64,000 nt of DNA, taken from Acidimicrobiaceae bacterium (GTDB lineage: Bacteria > Actinomycetota > Acidimicrobiia > Acidimicrobiales > RAAP-2). Numbering within the stretch: position 1 is the stretch's first letter; each line of letters starts with the position of its first letter. The stretch lies in the NCBI GenBank assembly GCA_947456245.1, contig CANGPS010000003.1, forward strand, positions 62,001-126,000, written 5' to 3'. This document shows positions 11,822 to 19,442 of this stretch, piece by piece. Below the pieces are notes generated by a model that was given only the letters and a program-made list of their open reading frames with translations, made no database searches and had not been told where the DNA came from. Position numbers and translations under genes: made by a program.

Positions 11822-12988
11822 TCAGGGTGAGGGGGCGAGCAGGGCCCGACCGATCTCGAGCAGCCCCGTCAGGTCGGCCACATCGCCCTCCATGCGCTGC
11901 ACCGTGAGCAAGGGCGCGCCCTGCGTGGGCAGCCGCTCCCGGGCCGAGGCCTCTCGGTGGGCCACCACGGCGAAGTCGGTGTAGCTCTCGGCCACCGTGG
12001 CCAGCACGCGCTCGACCGCCTGCTCGTCGAGTTTGAGGTCGGTGGCCAGGCGGCCGGCCAGGCGTCCCGCACCTTCCTCGAGCGCTGCTGCCGATCGGGC
12101 GGCGGCCGGGTCGGTGAGCGATTCAGGGAGGACCTTGTTCAAGATGACCGCGCCGAGGTCGAGGTCGCGCTGGGCGAGCTGCTCGGCGAAGAACTCCGCC
12201 TCTCGGAGCGGGACGGCCTCAGAGCTCGACACGACGAGGAAGCTCGTGCGATCGTCAGCCATCAGTCGGGCCACCGCGTTGGCCCGCTCGATGAAGCCGC
12301 CGTACATCGACTGCATCGAGATGAAGAACTCCGAGATGTCCCCGAGGAACTCCGTGCCGAGGATTCGGTCGGCGATCTGGGTGAAGGGCTTCGAGGCGAA
12401 GTTCACGAGGCCAGATCGCGCCGGGGCGATCAGCCAGCGCAGGAGCCGGCTGGAGAAGAAGTCCGCCATCCGGTTCGGTGCGTCGAGGAAGTCGAGGGCG
12501 TTTCGGGTCGGGGGTGTGTCGACCACGATCAGGTCCCACTCGCCGGTGGCATGCAGCTCGTAGAGGCGCTCCATGGCGATGTAGTCGTGGCTCTGGATGA
12601 AGCGTCCGGTCAGGCTCTGGTACAGCGGGTTGGCCAGGATCCGGTCACGGGTCTCCTCGTCGGGCGCGTGACGGGCGATCAGGTCGTCCCAGCTCTTCTT
12701 GGTGTCGAGCATGGCTGCGGAGAGCGACCCCACCAGGGGGGCTCCGGCCTCGGCGAACACCGCAGCGGGCACCTCGGTGACCTCGTTGCCGATCCCCTTG
12801 AGGCCGAGGGCGTCGGCGAGCCGCCGGGCCGGATCCACGGTCAGCACGAGCACCCGTCCGCCGAGGCGGCTCGCGGCCAGCGCACCGAGGGCGGCGGCCG
12901 TGGTGGTCTTGCCGACCCCACCCGGCCCACAGGTGACGAGGATCTCGCGAGAGGCGAGCAGGTTCTCGATCGGAGACGTTCCCGGCAT
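11822..12988 (-). CDS. ArsA/GET3-like ATPase (second of pair)
   Basis: Deviant-Walker P-loop ATPase, 388 residues, with GPGGVGKTTTAAALG near the N-terminus, LTVDPARRL as switch region, and VVDTPPTRNALDF as Walker B/switch II. Actinobacteria commonly carry two such proteins side by side (Rv3679-Rv3680 in M. tuberculosis), thought to act together, rather than an arsenite pump; no arsenic genes are present here. The start overlaps the first ATPase's stop by one base (TGATG). Confidence 0.88.
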   Translation of the reverse strand: MPGTSPIENLLASREILVTCGPGGVGKTTTAAALGALAASRLGGRVLVLTVDPARRLADALGLKGIGNEVTEVPAAVFAEAGAPLVGSLSAAMLDTKKSWDDLIARHAPDEETRDRILANPLYQSLTGRFIQSHDYIAMERLYELHATGEWDLIVVDTPPTRNALDFLDAPNRMADFFSSRLLRWLIAPARSGLVNFASKPFTQIADRILGTEFLGDISEFFISMQSMYGGFIERANAVARLMADDRTSFLVVSSSEAVPLREAEFFAEQLAQRDLDLGAVILNKVLPESLTDPAAARSAAALEEGAGRLAGRLATDLKLDEQAVERVLATVAESYTDFAVVAHREASARERLPTQGAPLLTVQRMEGDVADLTGLLEIGRALLAPSP

Positions 12989-13938
12989 CAGAGCAGCTCC
13001 TCGCCGAGGTGGACCGCCACCTGCCGGGTCGCCCGCAGACCGTCGGTGCGGGAGAAGAGCTCGGGCACGAGGATCAGGGGCAGTCCGGCCGGCAGGCCGG
13101 ATCGGAGCGTGTCGAGGTGCTGGGTCCGGCTCCGCCGCAGCACCGTGGCGAGCCGCGCCGCCTCGAGCAGCGGGAGCGCTCCCCCGCCGAGCTCGTCGTC
13201 GAGGATGGCCCGACCCTTCTTCGAGCCGATCTTGTCGAAGACCGCCTCGTCCCTCGGCGAGAAGCGCTCGGGGAGGAGGCGGTTGACCACGATGGTGGCG
13301 ATGTCGACGTCGGTCTTCTCCTCGACGGCCGCCACCAGCTCGAGGGTCTCGGAGACGGGCATCTCCTCGGGCGTCGTCACGATGACCAGCCCGGTCTGGT
13401 CGGGGTCACCCAGGATCTGGCTCATCCAGTCCGTCTGCGACCTGATGAGGCCCACCTTGACCAGATCGTTGATGACCTGCGGGGCGGAGAGCTGGCTGAC
13501 GATGTGGCCGGTGGCCGGTGCGTCGACCACCACCGTGTCGTAGTGGCGCTCGCGGACCTCCCAGCAGACCTTCCCGATGGTGAGGATCTCCTTGACCCCC
13601 GGTGCCGCCGTGGCCAGGAAGTCGAAGGCCTTCGCCACGGGGCCGATCCGTCCGACGATCGGGATGCGCAGGTGCAGCTTGAGGTACTCGCGCAGCGACG
13701 CCTCGGTGTCCATGGCCATGAGCGAGAGGCCGTCGGCCACCCGCTGTGGCACGAACTCAGACGGCGGCACCTCGAATGCCGCCGAGAGGTCGCCCTTGGC
13801 GTCGATCTCGCAGCCGAGGACCGTGCGGCCCTGGTCGGCCAGCATCTGGGCCAGGCCCGCGGCGACGGTGGTCTTGCCGACGCCGCCCTTGCCGGTGACG
13901 AAGATCAGGTTCCGCTCGACGAGCGGCGCGGCGCCCAT
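12988..13938 (-). CDS. ArsA/GET3-like ATPase (first of pair)
   Basis: 316-residue partner of the downstream ATPase, with a P-loop (VTGKGGVGKTTVAAGLA, about residues 14-30), CEIDAKGDLSAAF as the deviant switch I, and VVVDAPATGHIVSQL as switch II. The Asp-Ala-Pro replaces the classical Asp-Pro. It follows DUF3107 by 14 bases on the same strand, so DUF3107 and the two ATPases probably form one operon. The cargo is unknown. Confidence 0.88.
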   Translation of the reverse strand: MGAAPLVERNLIFVTGKGGVGKTTVAAGLAQMLADQGRTVLGCEIDAKGDLSAAFEVPPSEFVPQRVADGLSLMAMDTEASLREYLKLHLRIPIVGRIGPVAKAFDFLATAAPGVKEILTIGKVCWEVRERHYDTVVVDAPATGHIVSQLSAPQVINDLVKVGLIRSQTDWMSQILGDPDQTGLVIVTTPEEMPVSETLELVAAVEEKTDVDIATIVVNRLLPERFSPRDEAVFDKIGSKKGRAILDDELGGGALPLLEAARLATVLRRSRTQHLDTLRSGLPAGLPLILVPELFSRTDGLRATRQVAVHLGEELL

Positions 13939-16361: not shown

Positions 16362-17492
16362 TCAGCCGATCTTGAGCTCTTGGCGGTAGACCCGGGCGGG
16401 ACCCTGGGCGATGATCTTCTCCGCCACGGCGGCGAAGGCCATAGAGGCCGGCGAGGCCGGGTCCGACACCGTGATGGGCTCGCCCGCGTCCCCACCCTCT
16501 CGCAGGGCAGGCACCAGGGGAACCTGCCCGAGGAGCGGCACGCCGAGCTGGCCGGCCAGCTGCTCGCCGCCACCGGCGCCGAAGAGCTCGTAGCGCCGAC
16601 CGTCGTCACCGACGAACCAGCTCATGTTCTCGATCACCCCTCGCACCGCCAGCTTCATCTTGCGGGCCGCCCAGGCGCTCCGCTGCGCGACGCGCTCGGC
16701 CGCGGGCTGCGGGGTGGTCACCACGTAGATCTCGACGCGCGGCAGCACCTCCGACAGCGTGAGGGCGACGTCGCCCGTGCCGGGCGGCATGTCGATGAGC
16801 AGGAAGTCGGGCTCGCCCCACCAGGCCTCGGTGACGAACTGCTCGATGGCCTTGTGCAGCATCGGTCCCCGCCAGATCACCGGCTGCTCGTCAGGCACGA
16901 AGAAGCCCATCGACAGGCAGCGCACGCCGTGGACGGCGGTCGGGATCACCGTGTCGCCGAGGATGATCGGGTCGTGCTCCGGCCCGAGCATCTTGGGGAT
17001 CGAGAACCCGTAGACGTCGGCGTCGAGCACGCCGACGCGCTTGCCGGCCTGGGCCAGCGCGATGGCCAGATTGACGGTGACCGACGACTTGCCGACGCCG
17101 CCCTTGCCAGACGAGATGCCGAGCACCCTCGTGGTGGACGACGTAGCCAGGAAGCGAGGCTCGTCACCACCGTGGCTGTGGCCATGGCCGTCGTCCTCGC
17201 CGCTCATCAGCAGCCGGAGGGTGGTCCTCAGGTTGAGCCGCTCGTCCTCCGACATCGTCCGGCGGCCGACCTCGACCGCGTCGATGCCGTCGAGGGCCTC
17301 GACGGCCCCCGTCACGGCGGCCTGCAGGGCGTCGGCCCCCGGCCAGGCGGCGATGGGGAGCGCCAACGTCACGGTGGCCTGACTGCCAGCCACGGCGACG
17401 TCGCCGATCATGCCGACCACGCCGAGCGCCAGCTCGAGCTCAGGGTCGATGACGCCTGCAGCGGCGGTCCGGACGGCGGTTGCATCACTCAC
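16362..17492 (-). CDS. mrp: Mrp/ApbC-type iron-sulfur cluster carrier ATPase
   Basis: P-loop scaffold that transfers Fe-S clusters to target proteins. 376 residues: an N-terminal MIP18/DUF59 domain (about 1-75), a His-rich linker (GHGHSHGG), then the Mrp ATPase with SSGKGGVGKSSVTVNLA, DADVYGFSIPKML and IDMPPGTGD. The Cys-x2-Cys found in many ApbC proteins is missing (the region reads SWFVGDDGRRYELFG), as in mycobacterial Mrp. The GTG at 17492 with GGAGAT ahead of it is preferred to an in-frame start 60 bases further up. Divergent from the SufR-like gene, 68 bases between starts, which fits shared iron-sulfur control. Confidence 0.9.
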   Translation of the reverse strand: MSDATAVRTAAAGVIDPELELALGVVGMIGDVAVAGSQATVTLALPIAAWPGADALQAAVTGAVEALDGIDAVEVGRRTMSEDERLNLRTTLRLLMSGEDDGHGHSHGGDEPRFLATSSTTRVLGISSGKGGVGKSSVTVNLAIALAQAGKRVGVLDADVYGFSIPKMLGPEHDPIILGDTVIPTAVHGVRCLSMGFFVPDEQPVIWRGPMLHKAIEQFVTEAWWGEPDFLLIDMPPGTGDVALTLSEVLPRVEIYVVTTPQPAAERVAQRSAWAARKMKLAVRGVIENMSWFVGDDGRRYELFGAGGGEQLAGQLGVPLLGQVPLVPALREGGDAGEPITVSDPASPASMAFAAVAEKIIAQGPARVYRQELKIG

Positions 17493-17547
17493 GGGGGATC
17501 TCCAGATCAGACGGGCCGACACCCGTCTGGCGGGGCCCTCTCGTCGG

Positions 17548-17553
17548 TACACT
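17548..17553 (+). promoter_or_regulatory. Candidate -10 hexamer TACACT, leaderless SufR-like gene
   Basis: TACACT ends seven bases before the GTG at 17561. No ribosome site precedes that GTG, so a leaderless message is the simplest reading. Confidence 0.55.
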
Positions 17554-17560
17554 ACCCACC

Positions 17561-18328
17561 GTGGGGAAGAAGGCGACCAGTCCGAGCACGGCCGTCGGCG
17601 GTCCAGCGGTGACCCCGTTCGATCACTCCGCCATGGCCGACGACGAGTTCTCGGCGGCGATCACCGCCCTGTCGAGCGCCTTCGGCGACCCCACCCGTCG
17701 TTCGATCTACCTCTACCTTCGCAACAGCCCGTCGAAGACGGTGACTGAGATCGCCGAGGAGTTCCACCTCCACCCCAACGTGGTGCGCCACCACCTCGAG
17801 CGACTGGTCAGCGCCAGCCACGTGGTGGTCGAGGCACCATCGCCCTCGAGCAGCGTGGGTCGGCCCGCCAAGCGCTACTCGTGCGCCGACGACGACCTGG
17901 CCGTCGAGCTCGGCTCGCGGCGCGACGACCTGCTCGTCGCCCTGCTCGAGCGAGCCCTCGACCTGCTGGGCCCCGAGAAGGCCGAGCAGATGGCCTCGGA
18001 GGTCGGAGAGTCCTATGGCCGCGAGCTGGCCTCGAAGATGGGCGGCAGCGACACGACCCGGACGGTGCAGTCCGCCATGGCGGCGATCGCAGAGACGCTC
18101 ACCGCCCACGGATTCGCCGCCCGGGCCGAGAACAGCGGGACGACGTCCTCCGTGGTGGCCGAGTCCTGCCCCTTCGGCGAGGCCGCTGCTCACCATCCGG
18201 TGCTGTGCGCCGTCGACCGCGGCATGGTCTCCGGACTGCTCGAGGGACTCGGTGCCGAGGGCGGGTCGACCTCGGTCCACCTGCGCTCCAAGGCTCGCGG
18301 CGACGCCGACTGCCGAGCCACCGCCTGA
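17561..18328 (+). CDS. SufR-like helix-turn-helix regulator
   Basis: ArsR/DeoR-type winged-helix repressor of the SufR branch, 255 residues. The DNA-binding domain is at about residues 40-105 (FGDPTRRSIYLYLRNS, then FHLHPNVVRHHLERL as recognition helix). The C-terminal half carries a SCPFGE...HPVLC pair with exactly 12 residues between the two Cys and a third Cys near the end, which fits Fe-S ligation in SufR proteins. It would sense cluster status and control suf-type genes. GTG 17561 is chosen from the promoter spacing; an ATG at 17633 has no ribosome site. The NifS-like gene begins two bases after the stop. Confidence 0.78.
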   Translation: MGKKATSPSTAVGGPAVTPFDHSAMADDEFSAAITALSSAFGDPTRRSIYLYLRNSPSKTVTEIAEEFHLHPNVVRHHLERLVSASHVVVEAPSPSSSVGRPAKRYSCADDDLAVELGSRRDDLLVALLERALDLLGPEKAEQMASEVGESYGRELASKMGGSDTTRTVQSAMAAIAETLTAHGFAARAENSGTTSSVVAESCPFGEAAAHHPVLCAVDRGMVSGLLEGLGAEGGSTSVHLRSKARGDADCRATA

Positions 18329-18329
18329 G

Positions 18330-19442
18330 GTGACCGCCTACCTCGACCACGCCTCCGCATCGCCGCTGCGTCCCGAGGTGTCGGCGGCCATGGCCCAGGT
18401 GCTCGAGATCCCCCAGGCCGACCCGGGCCGTGCCCACGACGGCGCCCTCGTCGTCCGCGACCTGATCGAGGACTCCCGCCGCTCCGTGGCCGACCTGGTG
18501 GGGGCGACGGCACGGCAGGTGGTCTTCACCTCGGCCATCACCGAGTCCGTCGCCACGACCCTGGCCGTCCTCGGGGCCGGTCGTCGGGTCCTCGCTGGCG
18601 GCACCGAGCGATCCAGCGTCATCGACGGTGCCCGGCGAGCGGGCGCCCTCGAGCTCGTCGACGTCGACGAGTCCGGCCACCTCGACCTCCACCACCTCAC
18701 CCGGCTCCTCGCTGGCGGGCCGGCGCTCGTGTGCTGCCAGGTGGCCAACCACGAGACCGGCGTGCTCGAGGACCCAGCTCCCATCATCGAGCTGGCCCGC
18801 CGGCACGGGGCCCTCGTCCACGTCGATGCCGCCACGGCCACCGGCCACCTGCCCCTCGCCCTCGGCGACCTCGACGCCGACGCCGTGACCATCACGGGCG
18901 AGATGCTCGGCGGCCCCATGGGCTGCTCGGGCCTCGTGGTGCGCAAGGGGCGCCCCTTCGGGTCGCTGCTCGTCGGCGGCGCCCAGGAGCGAGGGCGCCG
19001 ACCGGGTCTCGAGAACCTCCTCGGGATCGTCGGCTTCGGCGTCGCCGCCGACGTCGCGGCCGCCGTGCTCGACGCCGAGCGGGCCGTCGCCCGATCCCAG
19101 ATCTCCCTGATCGAGCAGGCCGCCGTGTCGGTCGACGGCGTGCAGGCGGTCGGCGACCCACGTCCGGACCACCGAGCGCCCCACCTTCGCTGCTTCAGCA
19201 TCGAGGGCATCGAGGCGGAGCCGGTCCTGCTCGGCCTGAACCGGGTGGGCATCGCCATCCACTCGGGGTCCGCCTGCTCGTCGGAGTCTCTCGAGCCGTC
19301 CGCCGTGCTCGCCGCCATGGGCCTCGACGCCGAGCGCTCGATCAGGGTGTCGGTCGGGTGGTCGACCACCGACGCGGACGTCGATCGGTTCGTGGATCGC
19401 TTCAGCGGCGTGATCGCCGATCTGCGAGCGCTCCGCTCCTGA
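18330..19442 (+). CDS. NifS-like cysteine desulfurase homologue lacking PLP lysine (probable pseudoenzyme)
   Basis: Class V aminotransferase fold, 370 residues, beginning TAYLDHASASPLRPEV as IscS/NifS proteins do. Conserved elements include TSAITES, NHETGVLEDP, HVDAATATG and the mobile loop SGSACSSESLEPS with the persulfide-forming Cys316. The Schiff-base His-Lys pair (SGHK...GP in IscS) reads TGEMLGGPMG, so Lys is replaced by Met192 and His by Glu191. The His that stacks on PLP (EHKAV in IscS) is Arg94. Classical PLP desulfurase chemistry therefore looks impossible, although the sulfur-carrying Cys remains. The GTG at 18330 follows the SufR-like stop by one base, so the two are co-translated. 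It may act as a sulfur relay or as a partner of a true desulfurase elsewhere. Confidence 0.82.
   Translation: MTAYLDHASASPLRPEVSAAMAQVLEIPQADPGRAHDGALVVRDLIEDSRRSVADLVGATARQVVFTSAITESVATTLAVLGAGRRVLAGGTERSSVIDGARRAGALELVDVDESGHLDLHHLTRLLAGGPALVCCQVANHETGVLEDPAPIIELARRHGALVHVDAATATGHLPLALGDLDADAVTITGEMLGGPMGCSGLVVRKGRPFGSLLVGGAQERGRRPGLENLLGIVGFGVAADVAAAVLDAERAVARSQISLIEQAAVSVDGVQAVGDPRPDHRAPHLRCFSIEGIEAEPVLLGLNRVGIAIHSGSACSSESLEPSAVLAAMGLDAERSIRVSVGWSTTDADVDRFVDRFSGVIADLRALRS

Follow-up and report, generated by a model that had tools for sequence, protein, structure and literature searches.

A NifS-like protein without the PLP lysine, and with its loop cysteine kept, is encoded behind a SufR-like regulator in Acidimicrobiales

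The window analysed here (the whole stretch of 64,000 nucleotides from an Acidimicrobiaceae bacterium) encodes, directly behind a SufR-like regulator, a protein of the NifS/IscS fold, P0001, that has lost the PLP site of a cysteine desulfurase and retains the cysteine of its mobile loop (Table 1). As read from the sequences of related genomes, the loss recurs, the linkage to the regulator gene is conserved and the genes concerned are under purifying selection. P0001 very probably forms no PLP aldimine and has no useful desulfurase activity. More tentatively, and at slightly less than an even chance, we favour the explanation that it is a PLP-free former desulfurase, whose mobile Cys loop would still serve the adjoining Fe-S genes, as a sulfur carrier or as a ligand of a nascent cluster.

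Table 1. Features of the locus, in window positions
Feature	Position	Strand	Remarks
Mrp/NBP35-type iron-sulfur ATPase, divergent from SufR	16362..17492	-	NUBPL-type ParA 281.8 bits; FeS_assembly_P 35.7 bits
CGGTACACTACC, -10-like element within half-palindrome, four bases before the putative SufR GTG	17545..17556	+	CGGTANACTACCG pattern
SufR-like ArsR-type regulator, C-X12-C-X34-C	17561..18328	+	HTH_20 42.5 bits; SufR_cyano 34.1 bits vs cut-off 178.8
NifS/IscS-fold protein without Lys (P0001, 370 aa)	18330..19442	+	GTG start, TGA stop at 19442
Arg94 codon (PLP-stacking His position)	18609..18611	+	R in 15/172, H in 157/172 orthologues readable there
Asp166 codon (PLP N1 partner), kept	18825..18827	+	D in 149/149 orthologues with Lys and 23/23 without
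Glu191-Met192 codons (canonical His-Lys)	18900..18905	+	Lys lost in 23/172, kept in 149/172; Glu191 in 14/15 with Arg94
Mobile Cys loop HSGSACSSESLEPS (H311-S324, Cys316 inside)	19260..19301	+	Cys in 172/172 rows reaching the loop

Both the open reading frame and the alignment bear out the sequence-only reading of this gene in its placement of Arg94, Glu191-Met192 and an intact Cys316. Compared with class I cysteine desulfurases, P0001 has Met192 at the position of the Schiff-base Lys and Arg94 at that of the stacking His, and it retains the catalytic Cys of the SGSAC loop as Cys316. The Gln that follows the PLP Asp is replaced by Thr, as had been claimed, but the spacing is of three residues (Asp166 to Thr169) and not of four. 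Gln is not diagnostic, because it is also missing in 97 of the 149 orthologues that keep the Lys; as the genome's own IscS-like enzyme lacks it too, its loss was dropped as a mark of inactivity. In the phosphate cup, Thr71 is changed to Ala or Pro in 13 of the 23 Lys-less rows, and Arg339 and Asp166 are kept in 22 and 23 of them, respectively, so that some pocket function could remain. Within the Cys loop, His311 and Glu319 are present in all 23 Lys-less rows, and in 148 and 145, respectively, of the 149 orthologues with the Lys.

No conserved lysine takes over the Schiff-base position. P0001 carries one lysine, K206, which is not conserved, and its orthologue L011 carries none; among the 15 proteins with Arg94, the commonest Lys column is filled in 5. 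Another Lys as the Schiff base of P0001 was rejected on these grounds. The catalytic Lys is the sole lysine of the protein in 75 of the 149 orthologues that have it: the NifS genes of the SufR locus have shed lysines, yet these orthologues kept the catalytic one. Six NifS-type proteins of about 370–395 aa (L011, L021, L032, L069, L072 and L186) contain no lysine at all; of the eight Lys-less rows with His94, five are of this kind.

P0001 matches the Pfam profile Aminotran_5 with 144.9 bits, which places it in the aminotransferase class V fold. Its best NCBIfam match, NifS, scores 233.5 bits, under the curated cut-off of 530.75, and IscS scores 175.2 bits, with a cut-off of 643.2. An AF2 model of P0001, built from a four-row alignment, has a mean pLDDT of 79 and a pTM of 0.81; the predicted pLDDT is under 50 at residues 312–320, around Cys316, as would be the case for a mobile loop. 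The model finds IscS-type proteins as its best structural matches, with Z of about 41 and tied among themselves. Among solved sequences, Archaeoglobus fulgidus IscS 2 comes first by a small margin, with 165.3 and 164.4 bits vs. 159 for Escherichia coli IscS; the corresponding PDB matches are 4eb5 (E 4.8e-47), its D199K variant 4r5f (E 2.5e-47) and E. coli 1p3w (E 2.2e-45).

For the survey of orthologues, the window's family gave a match at E 1e-55 in 57 of 172 genomes, and an even draw from the order gave a match at E 1e-58 in 179 of 397. We compared 174 loci from 174 genomes, no genome being used twice, from 45 families and 115 genera; two of the loci start past the Lys site and two stop short of the Cys. 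The sequence-only reading had proposed to look beside SufR genes for the same Lys loss, and this was found in 23 of 172 orthologues, all of them with SufR upstream on the same strand. The Lys-less share was 20/58 in the window's family and 3/114 outside it, the loci from other families being best matches, a weak-match group and a hand-picked middle part, so that percentages there are not a census.

Arg94 occurs in 15 rows from as many species, all of them Lys-less: six in genus g1, two in g18, one in g19, four in g10 and two in g14. It is found in none of the 149 orthologues that keep the Lys. Cys316, His311 and Glu319 are invariant among these 15 rows. Eight further Lys-less rows keep His94 (L021, L049, L032, L069, L072, L035, L124 and L186); four of them, L072, L035, L124 and L186, are isolated cases, for which an error in a single assembly is possible. 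For the Arg94 group, a frameshift or an assembly error was rejected, in line with what had been said from the clean codons, since 15 genomes have Arg94 and none of these has the Lys; for instance, the relative L010, with 73% identity, shows the same R94, E191 and M192. A general trend to lose the Lys among the desulfurases of these genomes was likewise rejected, as HK is found in 14/14 SufS and in 11/11 IscS-like enzymes readable at the site.

A SufS with HK and its Cys is present in 14 of the 15 genomes with Arg94; none was found in G003, which is 84% complete. A NifU_N (SufU-type) gene is also present in 14 of the 15, lying directly after SufS in G000, and together these genes indicate that a sulfur source is present in the Arg94 genomes. 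In G035 and G076, only SufS and the Lys-less protein were retrieved at E 1e-25.

The gene order Mrp(-), SufR(+), NifS(+) is found throughout the order, and most loci with sufficient flanking sequence show Mrp upstream of SufR. Behind NifS there is often a TPR-type gene, together with ccmH-type genes on the opposite strand. Of 172 orthologues, 144 have SufR as the immediately preceding gene of the same strand and 12 have it in another register; in the other 16 stretches, some of which are short, there is no SufR match. In the window, the stop codon TGA of the SufR-like gene (18326–18328) is separated by one base from the GTG of P0001 at 18330, and this gap suggests that both genes may be co-translated. 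The SufR-like protein has a winged HTH and three cluster Cys, and scores under the NCBIfam SufR_cyano cut-off; the three Cys are found in 170/170 orthologues (177 found, with 7 repeats dropped), including 15 rows from the sister genus g9. Two adjoining ArsA-type ATPase genes lie near the locus, on the reverse strand (window 11822–13938).

A conserved CGGTAnACTACC-like element (window 17545–17563) lies four bases before the SufR GTG, and the GTG start assigned to SufR is predicted from this upstream element. In 92 of 114 intergenic regions, vs. 425 of 5700 shuffles, the sequence agrees with the pattern CGGTANACTACCG at 9 or more of 12 positions; the pattern had been picked by eye partly from the same regions. 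The element suggests a leaderless SufR transcript and a putative operator over the -10 element. Two stretches around the suf genes of G000 and G002 were scanned for a matching promoter motif, and none was found. Between mrp and sufR there is also a perfect 8-base inverted repeat, CAGACGGG-N6-CCCGTCTG (window 17508–17529); it was set aside as a SufR operator because no counterpart with perfect 7-base arms was found in the other g1 regions compared (L010, L012, L013 and L014).

Genus g9 does not occur among the 57 genomes of the family that gave a match, and 79 g9 genomes carry a SufR orthologue, as counted from the list of matches. In the 15 g9 loci compared (L193–L207), there is no NifS gene in the stretch, SufR is present in all 15 and retains its three Cys, and Mrp is kept wherever its position is visible. 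In five of them, the next conserved gene begins within about 40 bases of SufR. The NifS gene is gone while SufR and the visible Mrp remain, which indicates that its function is dispensable in g9. These loci weigh most against the idea of a partner on which SufR depends, and they count against a sensor arm required by SufR, one of the roles that the sequence-only reading had offered.

A NifS tree was obtained by a quick method without a mixture model from 105 rows, comprising all 23 Lys-less orthologues and part of those with the Lys, with the trait columns left in. The Arg94 group has a support of 83 and nests among orthologues that keep the Lys. The Lys site requires a minimum of seven changes among 81 orthologues, or eight when an IscU-linked group is included; position 94 changed once, and the six other Lys changes fall elsewhere, in lineages that keep His94. 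This tree alone cannot separate gain from loss, and the prevalence of the Lys suggests that it is the ancestral state. In a SufR plus Mrp tree, also built by a quick method, 14 of the 15 Arg94 genomes (L011 having no columns) and the 15 g9 genomes form one clade, with an SH-aLRT of 99.

The Lys-less genes are under purifying selection. Nei-Gojobori dN/dS values were 0.09–0.35 in five Arg94 pairs with finite dS (two further pairs were saturated) and 0.17 and 0.20 in two other Lys-less pairs, and nine pairs with the Lys gave 0.16–0.27; no internal stops were seen in the Arg94 genes among the search rows. At a SufR distance of 0.3–0.4, the fraction of differing NifS sites was 0.53 for Lys-less pairs (20 pairs) vs. 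0.39 for pairs with the Lys (402 pairs). Mean entropy was 1.45 bits in 14 Lys-less rows (14 of the 15 Arg94 rows were used) vs. 0.92 in draws with the Lys, a gain of 0.53. The largest gains, of about 1.0–1.2 bits, are in windows centred on residues 187, 169–174, 78, 99 and 136, which are the PLP loops, whereas the Cys loop rises from 0.31 to 0.75 bits, a gain of 0.44 that is about the protein average. By these gains, the PLP loops are the most released and the Cys loop behaves as the protein at large. Both the faster evolution of the Lys-less genes and the more variable Cys loop fit relaxed selection.

Several of these results speak for a pseudo-desulfurase: the Lys is lost in 23/172 orthologues vs. 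a Cys kept in 172/172, SufR linkage is found in 23/23 Lys-less rows, dN/dS is low, Thr71 is changed, entropy peaks at the PLP loops, and the best solved-sequence match, A. fulgidus IscS 2, is itself naturally Lys-less. Against it stand the dispensability in g9, the faster evolution of the Lys-less genes with increased variation in the Cys loop, the lack of an adjacent IscU-type gene, unlike in A. fulgidus, and the very slow residual reaction on which the authors speculate for E. coli IscS K206A in passages of PMC9978102. A role using Cys316, as sulfur carrier or cluster ligand, is the best supported, because selection has preserved Cys316 with His311 and Glu319 beside it, in addition to the fold and many charged residues; and the repeated loss in relatives suggests a protein put to a new use more than a gene that is broken. 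In the course of events that we propose, the ancestor would have been a cysteine desulfurase whose gene followed that of a SufR-like repressor, divergent from Mrp, and it would have lost its PLP site by changes of Lys to Met, of the stacking His to Arg and of the His before the Lys to Glu, with its fold and mobile Cys loop kept. Cys316 is probably still in use: it could accept a persulfide from SufS or from another desulfurase or, in the way proposed for A. fulgidus IscS, ligate an Fe-S cluster in formation. The process served would be Fe-S assembly around Mrp, SufU or SufR, of which SufR and Mrp are suggested by position and SufU by analogy. We infer the Cys-relay role and its partner from this sequence evidence.

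It is rather unlikely that P0001 is a relic: a desulfurase made redundant by SufS and the IscS-like enzyme, whose PLP site decayed and whose gene stays under moderate structural constraint until it is deleted, as in g9. The g9 loci, with SufR and without the gene and with the following gene close behind in five of 15, agree with this, as do the faster evolution of the Lys-less genes, Cys loop included, the presence of other desulfurases and the repeated change of the Lys. However, a decaying gene sits poorly with dN/dS values well under 1, with the absence of internal stops in the Arg94 genes of the search rows, and with R94 in 15/15, E191 in 14/15 and Cys316 in 15/15 proteins over five genera. 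We consider it distinctly unlikely that the protein is a non-catalytic allosteric or decoy subunit, in which the fold binds SufR, SufU or a genuine desulfurase and the Cys loop is a mere contact. Its fixed place behind SufR, the many invariant charged and Gly residues and the fold, predicted to be intact, would suit such a subunit, but the role alone does not explain Cys316 in every orthologue reaching that position, and SufR persists without NifS in g9.

The emptied pocket might instead have become a new ligand site, where a putative Arg94-Glu191 pair, binding some ligand in place of PLP, acts as the gate of the Cys loop, as in a sensor. The pair is nearly constant in the Arg94 group, and Arg94 appears in no orthologue with the Lys and arose in one change on the tree; still, eight Lys-less orthologues with His94 manage without Arg94, and we regard this reading as improbable. 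That P0001 is still a PLP enzyme, holding PLP non-covalently, is highly improbable: Asp166 and Arg339 are kept, but there is no conserved lysine, and the stacking His, the phosphate cup and the Gln are changed too. A bolder form of the pseudo-desulfurase explanation is that a SufR-coupled desulfurase turned at least seven times in one order into a PLP-free Cys-loop protein, and that its commonest version, with a pocket rebuilt on Arg94-Glu191, might be a subunit for sulfur or cluster status, feeding the Fe-S repressor or Mrp, in an undescribed class of pseudo-desulfurase; we regard this full version as unlikely.

If the favoured explanation holds, P0001 would represent a bacterial, repeatedly evolved desulfurase minus its PLP site, with the sulfur-carrying Cys kept, for which sister species with the Lys are natural controls. 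It would make testable what job a Cys loop does without catalysis, a question that comes from A. fulgidus IscS, and whether Fe-S repressors may be supplied with clusters or sulfur by a donor of their own. It also calls for caution, since annotation as cysteine desulfurase by similarity may cover genes without the enzyme.

The sequence-only reading was right about the NifS/IscS fold, the loss of the PLP site, the retention of a persulfide-type Cys and the constant position directly behind the gene of a SufR-like regulator; its description of the function as undescribed gives way to archaeal precedents, in which a Lys-less NifS with the Cys kept is an already known kind. According to passages of PMC7585200, A. 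fulgidus IscS has a natural change of Lys to Asp and M. acetivorans IscS1 lacks the essential Lys. A literature search covering papers outside subscription returned these precedents, and did not meet with a SufR-linked Lys-less NifS, the Arg94-Glu191 pair or recurrent loss. Passages of PMC10848736, which, for a mycobacterium, connect the SufR regulon with loss of IscS, likewise contain no SufR-linked Lys-less NifS.

P0001 shares with the class I IscS/NifS enzymes the fold, the Cys loop, the PLP Asp and the substrate Arg, and differs from them in that the Schiff-base Lys, the stacking His, the Gln and the His before the Lys are gone. In E. coli IscS, His104, Asp180, Gln183, Lys206 and Cys328 are each reported as indispensable in passages of PMC9978102; three of these five are changed in P0001, and the Asp and the Cys alone are kept. 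The neighbouring SufR resembles the cyanobacterial and mycobacterial proteins in its HTH and three Cys, its C-X12-C corresponding to C203/C216 of Rv1460, for which passages of PMC6034842 report that the three Cys are needed for function. It differs in the spacing of the last Cys, of 34 vs. 27 residues, and in sitting by mrp and nifS.

A second Lys-less NifS group occurs in other families of the phylum (L265, L266, L269, L270, L273, L276, L278 and L279). Like P0001, its members lack the Lys and keep the Cys loop, with SD and then L or M in place of HK; unlike P0001, they keep the stacking His, form a separate clade (support 100) and have an IscU-like gene next in the six loci examined. In L265, TusA-like and DsrE-like genes, named from a reading of their sequences, also follow. 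P0001 itself is not encoded with IscU, the sole NifU_N match in G000 following SufS on another contig.

M. acetivorans IscS1, which is archaeal and encoded with IscU, is likened to P0001 by its description and not by sequence. The closest known counterpart is A. fulgidus IscS 2 (PDB 4eb5, 4eb7 and 4hvk), absent from the NifS tree in which the Arg94 group nests among orthologues with the Lys. In passages of PMC7585200, A. fulgidus IscS is said to be without desulfurase activity and to ligate, through a Cys, a [2Fe-2S] cluster on IscU. IscS 2 and P0001 have the same fold, with the Lys replaced and the Cys kept. Unlike P0001, with its Arg94 and Glu191, the archaeal protein keeps the stacking His, and it was solved with IscU, whereas the neighbours of P0001 are SufR and Mrp.
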